From Gammaproteobacteria bacterium UBA2168 (lineage in GTDB: Bacteria > Pseudomonadota > Gammaproteobacteria > Pseudomonadales > Azotimanducaceae): a DNA stretch of 46,900 nt. The notes under the pieces are model-generated. The model saw only the letters and a list, made by a program, of their open reading frames with translations, made no database searches and was not told where the DNA came from. A program made the position numbers and the translations under genes. The stretch's first letter is position 1; every line of letters begins with the position of its first letter. Positions 20,075-29,496 of the stretch are shown here, one piece after another. The stretch is taken from positions 1-46,900 of the forward strand of contig DCWG01000017.1 in the NCBI GenBank assembly GCA_002327525.1, given 5' to 3'.

Positions 20075-20767
20075 TTAGTGAGTGGCTTCGTTGCGGCCTT
20101 GCTCGTCTTCCGAGGCGCTCATGCGAACCTTCAATTCGTCGAGTTCGCCGTCAATGTCCTCGTCACTGTCAAGTTCGCCGATTTCATCCGACAGCGTTTT
20201 CTGCCCCATATCATACGCCTCGATTTCACCTTCGAGGTCATCCATTTTGCGTTCGTACAGTTCGAAACGCTGCATGGCGTCGTCCACATTGTGCTCCGAA
20301 AGCTGACGGCGCACTCCAAGCCGGCTCTTGGCCGCCTGACCGCGCACGATAATGGCGTTCTGCCGCGCCTTGGCGTCCTTGATCTTGGCCTGCAGCGCGC
20401 CCACGTCAGAACTGAGCTTCTCGAGCGTATCGTCGAGCAACGTCAGTTCCTTGGAGATCGTCCCCACCGCCTCGGTGGATTTGTTGCGCTCCACAAGCGC
20501 GCCTTTGGCGAGATCATCACGGCCCTTTCGCACCGCGACTTCCGCCTTGCGCTCCCACTCATTCGCCTCGCTTTCGTGCCACTCACAGCGGCGCTCGAGT
20601 TCCTTGCGCTCTGCAATAGCGCGCGCGGAGGTGCTGCGCACTTCCACCAACGCCTCTTCCATCTCCTGGATGATCAGCCGAACCATCTTCTCCGGATCTT
20701 CCGCCTTGTCCAGCAGGGCATTGATGTTGGAGTTGATGATGTCGGACAAGCGCGAAAAGATACTCAT
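20075..20767 (-). CDS. pspA: Phage shock protein A
   Basis: The 230-residue PspA/IM30 protein is almost entirely coiled coil, beginning MSIFSRLSDIINSNINALLDKAEDPEKM with the N-terminal amphipathic helix and the signature following it. It is a peripheral inner-membrane protein of the ESCRT-III superfamily that stabilises damaged membranes and inhibits PspF. The acidic C-terminus (ELDSDEDIDGELDELK) is slightly longer than usual. It is the first gene of the operon, about 60-70 nt downstream of the sigma-54 promoter. Confidence 0.96.
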   Translation of the reverse strand: MSIFSRLSDIINSNINALLDKAEDPEKMVRLIIQEMEEALVEVRSTSARAIAERKELERRCEWHESEANEWERKAEVAVRKGRDDLAKGALVERNKSTEAVGTISKELTLLDDTLEKLSSDVGALQAKIKDAKARQNAIIVRGQAAKSRLGVRRQLSEHNVDDAMQRFELYERKMDDLEGEIEAYDMGQKTLSDEIGELDSDEDIDGELDELKVRMSASEDEQGRNEATH

Positions 20768-20837
20768 CTTATTGCTAGCCTCAGTTGTTGAATCCTTTGC
20801 GCGTGATACCAGCTCACGTCGCAGTCACTCATTGGGT

Positions 20838-20853
20838 TACAGAATCCGTGCCA
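20838..20853 (-). promoter_or_regulatory. Sigma-54 promoter of the psp operon
   Basis: On the minus strand the sequence is TGGCACGGATTCTGTA: a perfect -24 element (TGGCACG) and, at correct spacing, a -12 element CTGTA. The last G-T instead of G-C also occurs in my recollection of the E. coli pspA promoter. AT-rich sequence at 20860-20900, between this promoter and pspF, fits an IHF-bending region and PspF binding sites. Confidence 0.8.
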
Positions 20854-20964
20854 ATTTTCTGAATTTACTCTATCTAATTGATTTATTTACTATTATTCTG
20901 ATCGCAAAGGTGCGACACGCTATTTCTCATGGCATCTTTCACCAACTGTTGGCAGAATTCACCT

Positions 20965-21975
20965 ATGCGAACTGAACCTGACCGCCTGCTTGGCGAGGCG
21001 CCCTCCTTCCTCAAAGTGCTCGAGGAAGTGTCTGCCGTGGCGCCACTCGAGAAACCCGTACTCATCGTCGGCGAGCGTGGTACCGGCAAGGAACTGATCG
21101 CCGCGCGGCTCCACTTTCTGTCCAATCGTTGGGAAGGCCAGTTTCTCAAGATGAACTGTGCCGCCATCTCGGATTCATTGCTTGAGAGCGAGCTGTTCGG
21201 ACATGAAGCCGGTGCCTTCACCGGTGCAGCTAAGACTCATCGCGGTCGTTTCGAGCGGGCCCACGGCGGGACACTGTTTCTCGACGAACTGGCCACCACG
21301 TCCACGCTGGTCCAGGAGAAACTGCTCCGGGTCATCGAGTACGGGGAATTCGAGCGGGTCGGCGGTAACAAGACCCTGTATTGCGACGTCCGCCTCGTGG
21401 CCGCGACCAACGACGATCTGCCTCGCCTCGCCGAACAGGGCAAGTTTCGCGCCGACCTGCTCGACCGCCTCGCCTTCGACGTGATCACGTTGCCGCCGCT
21501 GCGTGAGCGCGAGGCAGACATTCGGCTGCTGGCGGAGTATTTCGCCATCACCATGGCGAGTGAACTGGAACGGAACTTCTTCCCGGGCTTTTCCGCGCGT
21601 GCTCTGGAGGCCCTGAACGACTACGACTGGCCCGGGAATGTGCGGGAACTGAAGAACGTCGTCGAACGCGCCGTCTACCGCTCCGATCCCGATGACGTGG
21701 TCGACGAGATCGTCTTCGACCCATTCGATTCACCCTTCCGTCCCAATGTCGCACAGCACCAGGCCGCGGACACCGTAAACCCGACGTCCGCCGCCGTGCC
21801 TGCTGCGCAGTTACCGACCGACCTCAAGGAAAGTGTGCGCAAATACGAGATCGCCATGATCGATGCGGCGCTCGACGAGGCAAAGCACAACCAACGCAAG
21901 GCCGCGGAGTTATTGGGCCTGACCTATCATCAGTTCCGCGGCTATCTAAAGAAATACGACGTACTGAGTTCCTGA
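20965..21975 (+). CDS. pspF: Sigma-54 activator PspF
   Basis: PspF drives sigma-54 transcription of the psp operon and is inhibited by PspA. It has no N-terminal sensor domain. The AAA+ domain starts almost at once: Walker A GERGTGKE (36-43), the sigma-54 contact loop GAFTGA (83-88), Walker B GGTLFLDE (101-108) and NVRELKNVVERAVYRS. A Fis-type HTH ends the protein (NQRKAAELLGLTYHQFRGYLKKY). The start at 20965 (MRTEPDRLLGEAPSF) matches family length; an ATG 12 codons upstream is also possible. It diverges from pspA across a 197-bp control region. Confidence 0.95.
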   Translation: MRTEPDRLLGEAPSFLKVLEEVSAVAPLEKPVLIVGERGTGKELIAARLHFLSNRWEGQFLKMNCAAISDSLLESELFGHEAGAFTGAAKTHRGRFERAHGGTLFLDELATTSTLVQEKLLRVIEYGEFERVGGNKTLYCDVRLVAATNDDLPRLAEQGKFRADLLDRLAFDVITLPPLREREADIRLLAEYFAITMASELERNFFPGFSARALEALNDYDWPGNVRELKNVVERAVYRSDPDDVVDEIVFDPFDSPFRPNVAQHQAADTVNPTSAAVPAAQLPTDLKESVRKYEIAMIDAALDEAKHNQRKAAELLGLTYHQFRGYLKKYDVLSS

Positions 21976-24050: not shown

Positions 24051-24141
24051 GGAGAGGTGGCCGAGCGGCTGAAGGCGCTCCCCTGCTAAGGGAGTATGGG
24101 TTAAAAGCCCATCGAGGGTTCGAATCCCTCCCTCTCCGCCA
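24051..24141 (+). tRNA. tRNA-Ser (anticodon GCU)
   Basis: The 91-nt class II tRNA has acceptor stem GGAGAGG/CCTCTCC, discriminator G and encoded CCA, a D-arm with GCCGAGCGGCTGAAGGC, anticodon loop CTGCTAA (anticodon GCT, reading AGC/AGU), a long variable arm with ATGGG/CCCAT, and a T-arm with GGTTCGAATCC. In many gammaproteobacteria this tRNA follows csrA near alaS; here it is on the opposite strand to alaS-lysC and about 5 kb away. Confidence 0.97.
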
Positions 24142-24175
24142 AATTATATAGGGGCCAGCGGCCCCTATATAATTT
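24141..24175 (+). terminator. Perfect 16-bp hairpin directly after tRNA-Ser
   Basis: AAATTATATAGGGGCC (24141-24156), a 3-nt loop AGC and GGCCCCTATATAATTT (24160-24175) are perfectly complementary. The first A is the last base of the tRNA CCA end. The GC-rich core with AT-rich outer arms could act as a terminator in both directions, although the T-tract is only moderate. Confidence 0.6.
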
Positions 24176-24506
24176 GACAGTGTGGGCGGTGGGCCGGGCC
24201 CTCCCGGGTTCGAGCCGAGGCCTCACTGCAAAGCATGCTTCGTAGTGAGACCAAGTCGACGTCGTCACGCAGTGACGGCGGCCCCGAAGGGGTGAGGGCG
24301 GCGGCCTGAACCGACCACTGAATAATCCCTCCCTCTAGCTACCGCATGCGAGAGCATGCTGGGCTGTTCGAGTTGCGCCGCTCGCTCAATCTGAGGTATC
24401 CATCCGCGATGGCAGCCCTCGGTTTAAGAGGGGCGTCGATACCTTCTATCCGTCGAGATTCGCCCTAACCAGCATCATTGAGAGCGCGAATCGGAATCCG
24501 ACCCGT
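24176..24506. repeat. tRNA-adjacent repeat-rich stretch without genes
   Basis: This gap has no convincing ORF. AATCCCTCCCTCT, part of the tRNA 3' end (24123-24135), is repeated exactly at 24324-24336. Between the copies are GGGTTCGAGCC (like a T-arm), CTCACT/AGTGAG (24222-24227 with 24244-24249) around the palindrome AAGCATGCTT, CGTCAC-GCA-GTGACG (24263-24277) and CCCC-GAA-GGGG (24282-24292). AGCATGCT occurs again near 24353. This could be a repeat element tied to the tRNA, or the remains of an integration at its 3' end. Confidence 0.45.
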
Positions 24507-25646
24507 TCAACTGGGCAGTTGAGGATCGTCACCCGAGAGTGAAGTGGCCGCCAACAACTCCCGAAACTTACTTCTCTCGATTCGATCCTCGAATCCCGCC
24601 CGGCGTAGTCTTTGGAAGTATTCTTCGATTTGCCTGATCTGAAGGGTGCCGACGATTTCAATGCCCTTCTGGATCTGCTGAGGAGAGGTACCTTTGCCCG
24701 CCAGCACGATCATGGCCTCGAAGAGCGCCGAATCGAATTGATTCAGGCTGAAATTTTCCGCCTCGTCCAAGGCTGCGTGAAGCTGTTCCTTCCGTTGCGG
24801 TGCGTTGTCCAGAATCCACTTGAGGTGTTGGAGACCGTAGGAGACGTGACGTGCCTCATCCTGCATGACCAGCTGAAACATTCGCTTATCCACGGGAGTT
24901 GGCGAGATGAACTCGCTGAACCGGAACATCGTAAGAATGTTTCCCTCCGCCAGCAGGTGCATGAAAGCGCTGGCTTCACTGTAGGTATCGCTGTCAAGAA
25001 TTGCCTTCAATGTGTGCTCGACCTGCGGCAAGGCCTGCATGAGCCCCACGCCCCCCGCCAGGGCACGTTTGCGGAATACCTCGGCATGCCTTGCTTCATC
25101 GATTGCCTGCGTGGCGATGAAACCTTTGACCTCATGGAATTGATTGTTCATGCGCCAGCACCACTTGGCCGGCAGGTCGGTTGCGATCATCTCGACCTCT
25201 GTAAAGAAGGTACAGAGTTGCGCGAAGGCGATCTCCATTTCCTCCGACGTCTCATAGCGCGCCAGATCGTTCCATGGCACATCCGTCGTGGCGTCCCATT
25301 GTCGGCTTACCGCTTCTTCGTAAAACGACGCCACTCTGTAGGCCCAGACATCGCTCTTGACATTCAGATCCGGGCCGAGATCTGCTTGGCGCTCGACCTC
25401 GAAGGATGCGCCCCGGGGTGCACAACCACGCGGACCCCGGGGAATTTCGGGAAGTTCGTCATAGCCGTAGCTTCCCTGATTGAGGTCGATGTACGTAAGA
25501 CCTCGCTTCTCGCTGGCTATGTTGATTTCCAATTGTTCCGTCCCGGCATCCATCCAGCCGAGATCGAGATTTCCCTTTCGAATATCCTTCATCCGTAACA
25601 CGAAGTCATCATCAGCCAGGTAGTCGGTCGATCCGTAGTAGCTCAT
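24507..25646 (-). CDS. Ferritin-like diiron protein, catalytic-type subunit
   Basis: This 379-residue ferritin-like protein has all carboxylate-bridged diiron ligand positions: Glu150/Glu152 on the first core helix, DEARH (Glu184, His187), Glu234 in LLAEGN, and a second DEARH (Glu264, His267). The two ligand pairs are 30-34 residues apart, as in diiron oxygenases and desaturase-like enzymes. No signal peptide is present. The upstream gene encodes a colinear paralogue lacking every ligand, with a 22-bp gap between them. An oxygenase or oxidase reaction on a lipid-like or acyl substrate is inferred; the exact reaction is unknown. Distant resemblance is to AurF-like N-oxygenases and R2-like proteins. 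Confidence 0.8.
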   Translation of the reverse strand: MSYYGSTDYLADDDFVLRMKDIRKGNLDLGWMDAGTEQLEINIASEKRGLTYIDLNQGSYGYDELPEIPRGPRGCAPRGASFEVERQADLGPDLNVKSDVWAYRVASFYEEAVSRQWDATTDVPWNDLARYETSEEMEIAFAQLCTFFTEVEMIATDLPAKWCWRMNNQFHEVKGFIATQAIDEARHAEVFRKRALAGGVGLMQALPQVEHTLKAILDSDTYSEASAFMHLLAEGNILTMFRFSEFISPTPVDKRMFQLVMQDEARHVSYGLQHLKWILDNAPQRKEQLHAALDEAENFSLNQFDSALFEAMIVLAGKGTSPQQIQKGIEIVGTLQIRQIEEYFQRLRRAGFEDRIERSKFRELLAATSLSGDDPQLPS

Positions 25647-25668
25647 TTTTCGTCTCCTCGGAAAGCGC

Positions 25669-26754
25669 TCAATTCTCGATCAGCTTCAAGAAAGCCGATA
25701 GCGGACTGCGATCCGCACGGTTGCCCAATCCCGCACTGACACAGCGCTCAAGATACTCTTCTATAGTGCGGCGATAGAATCGGGATACTGTCTCGAATCC
25801 GCCGGACATCAGGATCAAGCTTTCGATCAGTTCGCGGGATCCCAGAAAGCCGACCAGTCCATTCTCGACAAGGTCGAGATGGTCGTTGATTTCTATGGCC
25901 TTGCTGGGGTGGGCTTCGACCAGCCCCCGAACCTGCCGGATCCCATAGGCGATCGGCCGGGAAGAATCCTCAGAGAGTTTCATCCCGAGCATCGAATCTG
26001 CTGAATTTCGAGCGACGAACTCGAAATGGCGGCCTAACGCCTGGCCGATTGAGTAGAGAGTCAGGTTGGTTGCCGCGGATGCCAACGGATAGCTTTCTGA
26101 ATCGATGACGCTCTTCAGGAATTCACCCAATTCCCAGGAGTCTTTTCCCAGCGATTTATGTCCGAATAGTGCACGCTTTCGAAAGGCTTCAGCGAGTCGT
26201 GCCGCATCAAACATTTGCGCGCAGAGCAGGTACTTGATTTCGTGGAATTCCTGGTTCATGAGCCAGACCCAACGCGATGGGACGTCTGCAGCGACCAGGA
26301 AGATCGATGTCAAGCCGGTCGCCAGCTGCCTCATGGCTTTATCCTCGTCCTGGCTATAACCGGGAGAATTGAGGACCAACCAGGGGATCATACGTGCCGG
26401 TGCCCAACGCCGAGCCTTGCTTTCCTCGAAGAGCTCTGGACCATTATCGGCCCAGACATCGCTCTTGCGATTGACGCGGTAGCCGAGCGTAGGCAGGCCT
26501 TCGGGCAATATCGCCCCCCGTGGAGCCATCGAGAAATTATGTCGAACGATGTCGGGGATCGACTCCGGTCCGTAAAACGGATCCTGATTGATGTCATCCA
26601 GGGTCAGGCCCCGGGAGGGTTGGGATGCAAGGGCTCTTACGGGGTGGGGGCGCTCCTTCATCCACGAAAGGTCGAGTTGCCCACTCATCACCTGCATGAC
26701 CTTGCGAATCAGGTCCTCGTCTGCCGAATAGTCCTTGGGTGCGATATAGGCCAT
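25669..26754 (-). CDS. Ferritin-like paralogue lacking all diiron ligands (pseudo-subunit)
   Basis: The 361-residue protein aligns without gaps with the downstream diiron protein over about residues 97-200 (KSDVWA; FHEIK; AFRKRALF versus FHEVK; VFRKRALA). Ligands are all replaced at matching positions: Glu150/152 to Ser/Phe, Glu184 to Ala and His187 to Leu (DAARL), Glu234 to Tyr, Glu264 to Ser and His267 to Pro (SEDSSRP). The fold-related residues remain, so it is likely a structural or regulatory partner, as the metal-free beta subunits are in soluble methane monooxygenases. It overlaps the SCP2-like gene by one base (TGATG). Confidence 0.8.
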   Translation of the reverse strand: MAYIAPKDYSADEDLIRKVMQVMSGQLDLSWMKERPHPVRALASQPSRGLTLDDINQDPFYGPESIPDIVRHNFSMAPRGAILPEGLPTLGYRVNRKSDVWADNGPELFEESKARRWAPARMIPWLVLNSPGYSQDEDKAMRQLATGLTSIFLVAADVPSRWVWLMNQEFHEIKYLLCAQMFDAARLAEAFRKRALFGHKSLGKDSWELGEFLKSVIDSESYPLASAATNLTLYSIGQALGRHFEFVARNSADSMLGMKLSEDSSRPIAYGIRQVRGLVEAHPSKAIEINDHLDLVENGLVGFLGSRELIESLILMSGGFETVSRFYRRTIEEYLERCVSAGLGNRADRSPLSAFLKLIEN

Positions 26755-27176
26755 CAGTTGATCTCCACGTCGAGATTCTTGGCTTCGTCAAGAAATGCCT
26801 GGATGGTGGCCATGAAGCGGTAGAAACGGTCGTGACCTTCGGGGTCTTCGTATTCGACGCTCATGATATCGCCCATATGAGTTAGGGAATTGATCGTATG
26901 GCTTGCGTCGGCTCCATCATTTTCCTGAATGGATGCGAGCATTTCACACCAAAGTTCCCGTTGGGCGTCCAGGACGAAATCGAGATTCTCGGCATCACCT
27001 CCCTCCGCGACTTCCACGCACTCGTAAATCTCGAAAGTGATCGAATACAGTTCGCTCCCGACACGGATGCCGAAGGTGGTGTCGCAATAACCCAGTTTTT
27101 CAAAGGCCACAGCTTCATCTTTGGTACGTTGTTGGAGCGCCTGGAAAAAATCCAGGGAGGGAAAGGGCAGGCTCAT
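26754..27176 (-). CDS. SCP2-like small protein, first gene of the ferritin-like operon
   Basis: From the chosen ATG at 27176 (GGGAGA 6 nt upstream) the protein has 140 residues. The pattern FFQALQQRTKDEAVAFEKLGYCDTTFGIRVG, then YSITFEIYECVEV, an acidic stretch, and ASHTINSLTHMGDIM resembles SCP2-type sterol/lipid-binding fold proteins in memory; this is a moderate call. A longer start at 27287 would add 37 basic residues and is unlikely. It overlaps the pseudo-subunit gene by one base, so the three genes are probably translated in a coupled way. It could deliver or bind a hydrophobic substrate. Confidence 0.65.
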   Translation of the reverse strand: MSLPFPSLDFFQALQQRTKDEAVAFEKLGYCDTTFGIRVGSELYSITFEIYECVEVAEGGDAENLDFVLDAQRELWCEMLASIQENDGADASHTINSLTHMGDIMSVEYEDPEGHDRFYRFMATIQAFLDEAKNLDVEIN

Positions 27177-28272
27177 TCGGATTCTCCCGTGCTCGTTCGT
27201 AGGTTTCTCTTCGAGGCTCGCGGACAGGATTCTAGAGTTTCTCCGGCGGTTGGATTTCGCCCGACGGCGGTGCTTCATCCACGGCAATCAATCATCCGGC
27301 GGTGGCAGTTTCAGACCGTCCGCACGTCCGATCCAAAGGCTTTCTGTCGTTAGCGTGCAAGTCCCATACTGCTGGCTACAACGTCTATGCCGGTTGAACC
27401 CAGTACACCGGTACGAATCTCCACTTTATTCAGAAACAAACTAGCACGTATCAAACAAATAGCCAGCATATTTCGGAGATTGGTGGCCTACCAAGCACAG
27501 GCGACGAAGCGACACAGCCTGTACAACCTCCCCGGAAACTGCCGACAAGCCTCCTGAACCGGCAACAGGACTTCGTCGCCGAAAGAAGCCACTGAGAACT
27601 CACCACATCGCCCTGCCAGCATTCGGTTACAGTCTCTGGAGAAATGGCGCGGCAGGGCGCTGTTTCTCAATCTCAGAATCCCTCGAACCGCTCGCTGCCC
27701 AATTGCGTGTACATCCCCGTTTGCACACCGCACGGATTGCGTCGGTACAGAGTCGTTCTGATGCTCCGAAAACACCACAAGTTCTCCGGTGTCGTATTCC
27801 GCTACTAACCACCTGGAATCAATGACCTCCAGCTTCAGGTCCCGCAGGAGCAATGCCACAAGCAGCCGGGAAGTCACCCGGCCGCTTGCCCGTCTCGTCC
27901 TCGAACACCCTCCCGGGTGGAAAAATGCCAGCCATCTTCGGCATTCTGCATTCGTTTCGCGGATTCGGGTCCATTGAGGTTGTCCAGAAGCAGCCCCCGT
28001 ACTGGAACTGATGCGCCGGGTCACCTCGCTCAGCAGCATGTTGATTACCACACGCTGAGCGTTGAGACAGCAACTCACCCGCGCCATGACGTCAGGTTCG
28101 TCGGCACTCAAGACCATGAACAGAGTACGCCCCAGCGAACAGCCTTCCTTCCAAACGATGTGCAATCGTGCCGATAACCTCCGTGTACGATTCACACAGA
28201 CGTTAGGAATGCGTTCTCGGCTTTTCTGAAACGCCGGTCACATTTGGCGACGGCACCTGACATTTTTTTTGG
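27177..28272. other. 1.1-kb region without a confident gene
   Basis: The longest frame (27488-28195, minus strand, 235 codons) has an unusual residue make-up rich in Arg, Cys and Ser and matches no family I know. Other frames contain no recognisable domain either. A degraded gene is possible. Near the operon side, AAACAAA at 27434-27440 and 27453-27459 (TTTGTTT on the minus strand) form a direct repeat with 19-bp spacing about 260 bp upstream of the SCP2-like gene and may be activator sites. The far end has an inverted repeat (28246-28284). Confidence 0.4.
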
Positions 28273-28284
28273 TCAGTTGCCGCC
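28246..28284. repeat. Imperfect inverted repeat with T8 loop at the CoA-transferase 3' end
   Basis: GGCGACGGCACCTGAC (28246-28261) pairs imperfectly with GTCAGTTGCCGCC (28272-28284), with a run of eight T in the loop. The second arm includes the stop codon of the CoA-transferase gene. On that gene's strand the loop is A-rich and there is no T-tail, so it is not a standard intrinsic terminator but may protect the 3' end. Confidence 0.4.
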
Positions 28285-29469
28285 GACCACACCCTCCGCC
28301 TTCAACCGTCCGATTTCGGCTGCAGAGATATCGTACTCCCGTAGGATCTCGGCGGAGTGCTCTCCTATCCCTGGTGCGCGCTGGGGTGTGAGCTGACCCT
28401 CCGACGACAGCTTAATCGGAGTAGCAAAAGTCCTCTCTCCACCCGGCAAGGCGGCTTCGGAGTCGAGGAGCACACCGTTGGCGAGCAGCTGCGGATCTTC
28501 AAGCACCTCTGCGTTGCGCATCACCAGGCTGTGGACAATACCGGCCTCGTCGAGGCGGCGGCAGAGCTCACTCGAATCGATGTTTGCGAGGGCTTCGCCG
28601 ATCATCTCACGGGCAAGAAAACGGTTGCGAAACAATGGCTTCACCGGCTGGAACCGCTCATCGTCCAACCACTGCGTACGTTCGAGCACATACACCAGCT
28701 TCGGCCAGTCACGCGCAACGTTTTGTATCACGATCAAGACAAAACGCTCATCGGCGGTGCGGTAGACGCCCTGCACGGGATTGGACCAGCCTTCCTGATC
28801 ACGTCTTGCGGCGGTATCGACCCCCGCCATGACACCCTGCAGGTTGAGGCCGTTAGCCCACGCACCCGTTGCCACGAGCGACGTGGAAACCATACTGCCT
28901 TCGCCGGTTCGGTCACGCTTATACAACGCCATCATGATGCCGGCGAACAGCGTCATCGAGGTAGCATGGTTGCCTCCCCCCCCCGCCGGCATCGAGGGTG
29001 CGACGTCCTTTTCATGCATCATGTCGAGAATTCCCGTCCGCGCGAACCATGCCGTGAAGTCGAAGGCACGCCGCGCAGACTCTGGACCCTCCAGTCCGTA
29101 TCCTGAGATTTGGGCAAATATGAGGCGTGGATTGACTGCCCTGAGCGTCTCCCAGTCCAGGTCGTACCTATCGAGTTGCTGGGCACTGAAGTTGACGACG
29201 AATACGTCTGCCTTTTTCAGCATGCGCAACAGCACTTCCCGCCCTGCCCCGGTGGTGATATCCATCGCCAGGCTGCGTCGATTGCGGTCGGTCAGCTGCC
29301 ACGAATAATCGCTCGGGTGGCCGGCCGCGATGGAGCGCTGCTGGTCACCGCTGAGCGGTTCGATCTTCACGACGTCGGCCCCATAGTCGGACAGGATCGT
29401 GGCGGCGCACGGACCGGCAAGAAATGACGCACCATCGATGACTTTGAGATCGGCGAACAATGCAGGCAT
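28273..29469 (-). CDS. CaiB/BaiF family III CoA-transferase
   Basis: Family III CoA-transferases move CoA between carboxylic acids through an aspartyl-CoA intermediate. The 398-residue protein begins MPALFADLKVIDGASFLAGPCAATILSDYGADVVKIE, with NRRSLAMDI and ISGYG following, and contains DFTAWFARTG, where the Asp is the expected nucleophile. The length is normal (about 400). The ATG at 29469 is preferred over a TTG seven codons upstream. The substrate is unknown. It lies 79 bp after lysC and could share its transcript; a hairpin (29497-29519) lies between them. Confidence 0.9.
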   Translation of the reverse strand: MPALFADLKVIDGASFLAGPCAATILSDYGADVVKIEPLSGDQQRSIAAGHPSDYSWQLTDRNRRSLAMDITTGAGREVLLRMLKKADVFVVNFSAQQLDRYDLDWETLRAVNPRLIFAQISGYGLEGPESARRAFDFTAWFARTGILDMMHEKDVAPSMPAGGGGNHATSMTLFAGIMMALYKRDRTGEGSMVSTSLVATGAWANGLNLQGVMAGVDTAARRDQEGWSNPVQGVYRTADERFVLIVIQNVARDWPKLVYVLERTQWLDDERFQPVKPLFRNRFLAREMIGEALANIDSSELCRRLDEAGIVHSLVMRNAEVLEDPQLLANGVLLDSEAALPGGERTFATPIKLSSEGQLTPQRAPGIGEHSAEILREYDISAAEIGRLKAEGVVGGN

Positions 29470-29496
29470 GGGTACTTTCCGAAGGCTCAACTGATG

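Follow-up and report, generated by a model that had tools for sequence, protein, structure and literature searches.

A ferritin-like diiron protein encoded with a ligand-deficient paralogue and an SCP2-fold protein: a probable heteromeric oxidase or oxygenase of bacteria

Operon organization

The window analysed here, a stretch of 46,900 nucleotides at the start of contig DCWG01000017.1 of Gammaproteobacteria bacterium UBA2168, carries on its minus strand, at 24507-27176, three genes in the order C-A-B, where a preliminary description had placed a three-gene operon led by an SCP2-like protein. The features are listed here.

26754-27176, minus strand: gene C, 140 aa from ATG, SCP2-fold protein, first gene of the operon
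25669-26754, minus strand: gene A, 361 aa, putative metal-free ferritin-like partner with S150, F152, A184, L187, Y234, S264 and P267
25647-25668, minus strand: gap between A and B, 22 bases, with a GAGGAG ribosome-binding-like motif ahead of the B start
24507-25646, minus strand: gene B, 379 aa, diiron ferritin-like catalytic candidate with E152, E184, H187, E234, E264 and H267
24051-24141, plus strand: tRNA-Ser (GCT), adjoining the 3' end of the operon

The C stop and the A start share one base (TGATG) and 22 bases separate A from B, so that C, A and B very probably form a single operon, as had been proposed.

The ferritin-like proteins

B has the complete six-residue diiron ligand set of a ferritin-fold protein (E152, E184, H187, E234, E264 and H267), through which it would be expected to bind metal. 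The preliminary description, which read the relevant residues correctly in both B and A, had also counted E150 as a ligand. All seven positions are kept in 120 of 120 B homologues (the best 120 of 1287, window B among them); in some otherwise ligand-complete relatives, position 150 is M, S, Q or P and E152 is constant. E152 is thus the likely ligand and E150 probably is not, so the earlier list stands for the other six residues.

With its E...ExxH...E...ExxH set in a helical bundle, B belongs by ligands, helical model and fold matches to the broad class of ferritin-like diiron carboxylate proteins. Its predicted model is only fair (pLDDT 78), and residues 65-81 and 86-97 score below 50, which leaves a conserved N-terminal part without explanation. 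The nearest folds are VlmB/Protein 60, R2lox, aldehyde-deformylating oxygenase and the hydroxylase of soluble methane monooxygenase (sMMO); VlmB and R2lox are the best matches, with R2 about 2 Z units behind, and in the structural alignments B is 17-18% identical to VlmB/Protein 60 and R2lox. B does not reach the NCBIfam equivalog for R2lox (28.4 bits against a cut-off of 194) or a second model (14.5 against 315). A Pfam search of the window proteins A, B and C (maximum E 10, HMMER filters on) left B below the gathering cut-offs of AurF (19.1 against 29.6 bits), DUF455 (22.4 against 34.3) and Ribonuc_red_sm (18.4 against 33.6) and returned nothing for A; no multicomponent monooxygenase or PaaA/PaaC family was listed for either protein. 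Some close relatives of B carry precomputed assignments to PF04305 or, in one relative, PF00268, which makes B borderline kin of these families. Sequence searches of solved structures gave a best E of 0.012 with the B profile and a single non-significant match (E 1.1) with the A profile.

A and B are 33% identical over 367 positions (BLASTP) and their numbering stays in register between residues of about 85 and 300, which bears out the earlier statement that the two can be compared position by position. At positions 150, 152, 184, 187, 234, 264 and 267 of B, A has S, F, A, L, Y, S and P, and not one of the seven is kept in any of 120 A homologues (the best 120 of 595, window A among them). The claim that A had lost every ligand therefore holds for these 120 best homologues, the window protein included; in partner copies that are more distant, one histidine or both are still present. 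A retains 86 of 190 B-invariant columns, 47 of 117 in the helical core, and 0 of 6 ligands. The hypergeometric probability of such a loss is 0.025 over all columns and 0.04 in the core, values that come from one group of related sequences and are modest alone. The loss of ligands is not plainly a mere by-product of general divergence, and many non-ligand residues are invariant among A proteins.

A is under purifying selection. Its dN/dS ratio is near 0.1, window A and its counterpart at locus L002 differing by a dN of 0.19 and a dS of 1.9, and between L002 and L004 dN and dS were 0.08 and 0.63 for A, 0.03 and 0.54 for B, and 0.09 and 0.72 for C; several other dS values were saturated. The pairwise distances of A and B are correlated (r 0.97 for 16 type I/II pairs and 0.83 for 12 type III pairs), neither value being reached in any of 2000 permutations, and A diverges 1.55 (type I/II) and 1.81 (type III) times as much as B. 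As block inheritance would give the same correlation, this shows lasting association of the two genes, not contact; inheritance as a block, combined with a link through one pathway, would produce both co-divergence and adjacency even for proteins that do not touch.

Occurrence in other genomes

Related loci were drawn from a genome collection (18 loci), 58 relatives (13 matching), 282 genomes of one phylum (42 matching, starting genomes included), 398 genomes of the window's phylum (2 matching, the window's genome being one), 396 genomes of the phylum of an actinobacterial locus (11 matching, its own genome included) and 206 genomes of the window's family (66 matching, own genome included). 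A subset of these matching genomes and places, 138 loci (98 + 40), was read, the window's own pair standing outside the count. Ferritin hits of 85 bits or less were dropped, and neighbours less than 500 bases apart were taken as one group. One locus, L012, repeats L011 from another assembly, and several genomes yield more than one pair.

The set recurs in several groups of bacteria. The 138 loci include 86 tandem pairs, each with one ligand-complete and one degenerate copy; pairs of two complete copies, the arrangement that would have spoken against a pseudo-subunit, numbered 0 of 86. C is adjacent in all pairs except those at L190 and L257 (84/86), and the gene orders, assigned by reading, are C-A-B in 14, C-B-A in 13, B-A-C in 58 and unusual in one (L226). 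A further 24 complete copies have C and lack a partner (4 near contig ends), and 25 complete copies lack C (9 near contig ends). Only five partner copies were found without a neighbour. Three of them lie near contig ends, and that at L245 belongs to a pair split by a gap of just over 500 bases containing a run of N. The sole lone A away from a contig end (L227, genome G1158) is a 234-residue match, apparently a decaying remnant, so that the other feared outcome, a pseudo-subunit occurring mostly alone, did not materialize either. L227 has the residues QATRGIF and no B or C in the fetched stretch, and its genome measures 2.5 Mb. The pairing census, purifying selection and co-divergence with B thus give partial support to the idea of a dedicated pseudo-subunit.

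The degeneration of partner copies is graded. Of the 85 copies that could be scored, 40 have lost all six ligands; one ligand survives in 15, two in 29 and three in a single copy. H187 is retained in 38 and H267 in 37, E152 in one, and E184, E234 and E264 in none. At position 264, 31 of these 85 carry K and 12 carry H, copies that their patterns assign to type III.

Some further arrangements were seen. B-A-C loci usually have a second, weaker C, and in the type III loci L147-L186 a second, weaker-scoring SCP2-like gene usually follows the first. At L182 (genome G026) a complete copy close to type III B has no A or C nearby, in a genome that contains two type III pairs besides. The complete copies at L213, L214, L220 and L222, which are more distant and lack C, lie near a conserved gene, an acyl-CoA dehydrogenase in the one that was scanned.

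The SCP2-fold protein and gene context

The fold of C is clearly SCP2 by structure prediction, and the earlier assignment of an SCP2-like protein stands at that level; the sequence gives hints only. The Pfam SCP2 family (PF02036) was touched by just 4 of 36 C proteins (best E 0.017) and matched neither window C nor four other C proteins, and the C profile found a single non-significant match (E 0.8) among solved structures. Its fold matches, in which a shared fold does not show function, include UbiJ, an SCP2 protein belonging to the Ubi complex. Hydrophobic ligands are the common cargo of SCP2 folds, and C, given its predicted fold and genetic linkage, probably offers B a substrate that is hydrophobic or bound to a carrier. 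Many charged and polar residues of C are fully conserved.

Frames of the form C-x2-C-x2-C-x3-C were sought at the 24 loci with a single B and C, at the 86 paired loci and in the window. In 14 of the 24 B-C loci without A (L012 again repeating L011), a 4Fe-4S frame begins no more than 250 bases beyond C, which suggests redox catalysis. Two of the misses, L019 and L265, have just 206 and 1 bases left downstream; eight (L003, L167-169 and L203-206) have no such frame despite at least 1.3 kb of downstream sequence, and the seven of these that a first tree of 85 rows included (L003, L167, L168 and L203-206) form one clade in it, with an SH-aLRT of 100. No frame was found within 3 kb on either side in 84 of the 86 paired loci, 73 of the 86 having at least 1 kb downstream; the two others are L226 and L244, the latter with a 41-residue frame 2.9 kb away. 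All seven frames scanned (L216, L171, L018, L170, L210, L015 and L226) passed the Pfam Fer4 cut-off. At L226 (genome G215) a single cluster unites the ferredoxin, C and two ferritin-like copies, one complete and one degenerate (QEYHNCH). Ferredoxin and A thus do not exclude each other, and this locus may represent an intermediate or else a pairing of its own. Beside the window operon itself no redox partner turned up, and no reductase was recognised within it.

Downstream of the type III loci lie orthologous CoA-transferases (12 of 35; 68-91% identical) and sodium:solute symporters (12 of 35), a single representative having served to name each family. An acyl-CoA dehydrogenase occurs near seven loci of various types; antisense reading frames of the ferritin genes were ignored in these counts. 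Such neighbours point weakly to the breakdown of hydrophobic acids. A functional link between the window operon and its own neighbouring CoA-transferase was considered and rejected, because the genome has 65 matches to the family and the neighbouring gene is 28-31% identical to the type III one and not orthologous to it. The 65 matches to CoA-transferase family III in this genome (G000, 3.7 Mb) include some fragments or tandem domains. Elsewhere in the window, at 20075-21975, a sigma-54 activator and a coiled-coil ORF are divergently oriented; by eye the ORF resembles PspA, which would make them a pair of the phage-shock type.

Origin of the operon and of the partner copy

Among the matches listed, the closest named relatives of the window set are Myxococcota or "Deltaproteobacteria" metagenome-assembled genomes and one "uncultured proteobacterium". 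Within its family (206 genomes), only the window genome yields a match of type I strength, at 632 bits against 473 for the runner-up, and the other loci fetched from this family are type III or single copies. Judged from these relationships, horizontal acquisition of the operon is likely. The operon adjoins tRNA-Ser, the contig also having alaS and lysC (named by reading), and that tRNA is a possible old integration site. A search of the window allowing up to 3 mismatches revealed no further copy of the tRNA 3' end, and a plasmid search returned one partial match only, with 27% coverage. The region 24051-29490 can be described as a Myxococcota-like operon beside tRNA-Ser.

In a tree of 76 rows, from which the ligand columns were left out and nine distant or long rows of the original 85 were dropped (including the distant L198 ferritin), type III A groups with type III B (97/90.7) and type I/II A with type I/II B (100/99.7). 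Such grouping by type would mean two duplications, each followed by loss of ligands. A single clade of all partner copies is not rejected on the same rows (p-AU 0.18), long branches being in play. When type III B is taken out, a tree constrained to keep type III A with the type I/II partners has a marginally higher likelihood (p-AU 0.64), and support for the I/II pair clade drops to 75.

A proposed enzyme complex

We propose, with a probability of roughly 0.7, that the operon encodes a heteromeric, O2-activating diiron oxidase or oxygenase in which B is catalytic, A is a metal-free partner and C presents the substrate. B would hold two metals through its six ligands in a helical core like that of VlmB and R2lox. 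A would be a dedicated partner of the same family, unable to hold a cluster, and most likely stands in for the second subunit in a dimer, leaving one active site per dimer; this A-B dimer is put forward from comparison of the genes. The cargo that C probably brings to B would be hydrophobic or carrier-bound. An oxygenase or oxidase role has indirect support, in that the nearest folds are O2-activating diiron enzymes and that ferredoxin frames accompany B-C loci without A. As many of those relatives carry the frame directly after C, the electron donor is probably a ferredoxin or reductase whose gene lies elsewhere in the genome.

That A and B might work separately, A forming its own oligomer with a substrate-binding, regulatory or protective task in the same pathway, seems to us rather improbable. 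Co-occurrence and co-divergence need only a shared pathway, and the histidines kept by many type III partners, together with Lys or His at 264, leave room for another use of the pocket. However, A is of B's own family with its core in register, adjacency is constant, and a partner copy hardly ever occurs without B. It is scarcely credible that A is a functionless, decaying duplicate. The loss of all ligands and the faster divergence of A would fit decay, but not so the low dN/dS, the many invariant non-ligand residues and a pairing conserved in 86 loci. We regard it as very improbable, too, that these proteins serve as small subunits of ribonucleotide reductase or as ferritins for iron storage: the weak similarity of B to Ribonuc_red_sm and the PF00268 assignment of one close relative are set against a score below the cut-off, folds that rank VlmB and R2lox ahead of R2 and a constant neighbour of SCP2 fold.

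A variant of the favoured explanation, with which its odds overlap, makes C a structural bridge or assembly factor of the same complex that carries no lipid. The usual hydrophobic cargo of SCP2 folds and the presence of UbiJ among the fold matches make this unlikely, if well short of improbable, since a shared fold does not show function and the fully conserved charged and polar residues of C would suit such a task. It has a precedent in PaaB, which sits in a cleft next to the interface of PaaA and PaaC (PMC4498308).

Taking the heteromeric complex of A, B and C as the favoured reading, the set probably makes up an enzyme complex that has yet to be described and whose substrate is greasy; a literature search of open-licence papers found no description of it. 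More tentatively, and with the balance of our judgement somewhat against it, it could represent a new class of heteromeric diiron oxygenases fed by an SCP2-type carrier, whose metal-free twin originated in two or more duplications (separately in types I/II and in type III) from single-copy B-C-ferredoxin ancestors, a homodimer repeatedly becoming a heterodimer with one site. Partner subunits without metal also occur in methane-monooxygenase-like and phenylacetyl-CoA enzymes, and we know of no settled purpose for them. Here single copies and partly and fully degenerate partners occur in one family, with loss that is graded (histidines sometimes kept, carboxylates gone), and the step from one to two subunits could therefore be studied directly. 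The operon also suggests a function for proteins that sources mostly name hypothetical or ferritin-like.

Comparison with known systems

The yeast Rnr2/Rnr4 heterodimer likewise joins a metal-bearing to a ligand-deficient R2, but it is a ribonucleotide reductase and is not known to have an SCP2 partner. Soluble methane monooxygenase systems include a regulatory protein and a reductase; unlike their alpha/beta hydroxylases, A and B fall in no such Pfam family, and neither a regulatory protein nor a reductase was recognised in the operon. B also stands apart from VlmB/Protein 60 and R2lox, being far below the R2lox cut-off and of low identity in structural alignment, and we know of no metal-free partner or SCP2 protein described for either.

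In bacterial multicomponent monooxygenases and PaaA/PaaC, a metal-free paralogue is dimerised with the catalytic subunit; in the present set, ligand loss and pairing are seen in the genes, and the dimer would be a proposed one. PaaA and PaaC are a catalytic diiron and a structural subunit of one fold, accompanied by a small extra subunit (PMC4498308), and the iron residues of PaaA (Glu42, Glu72, His75, Asp126, Glu155 and His158) follow the same pattern as the ligands of B; PaaA and PaaC are 17% identical there, against 33% for A and B. Unlike that system, with its PaaB and PaaE, the present one has an SCP2 fold in C, no reductase recognised in the operon and no such Pfam family for A or B.

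COQ7:COQ9 is similar in that a diiron hydroxylase is helped by a second protein. COQ9 is not known to have an SCP2 fold, the pair has no pseudo-subunit, and its enzyme family differs from that of B. COQ9 is a lipid-binding protein (PMC10385794) that raised the catalytic efficiency of COQ7 1.5-fold in vitro (PMC7615680), and UbiJ has an SCP2 domain and is a member of the Ubi metabolon (PMC9499169). The layout of the operon thus resembles both PaaA/PaaC and COQ7:COQ9 and matches neither family.
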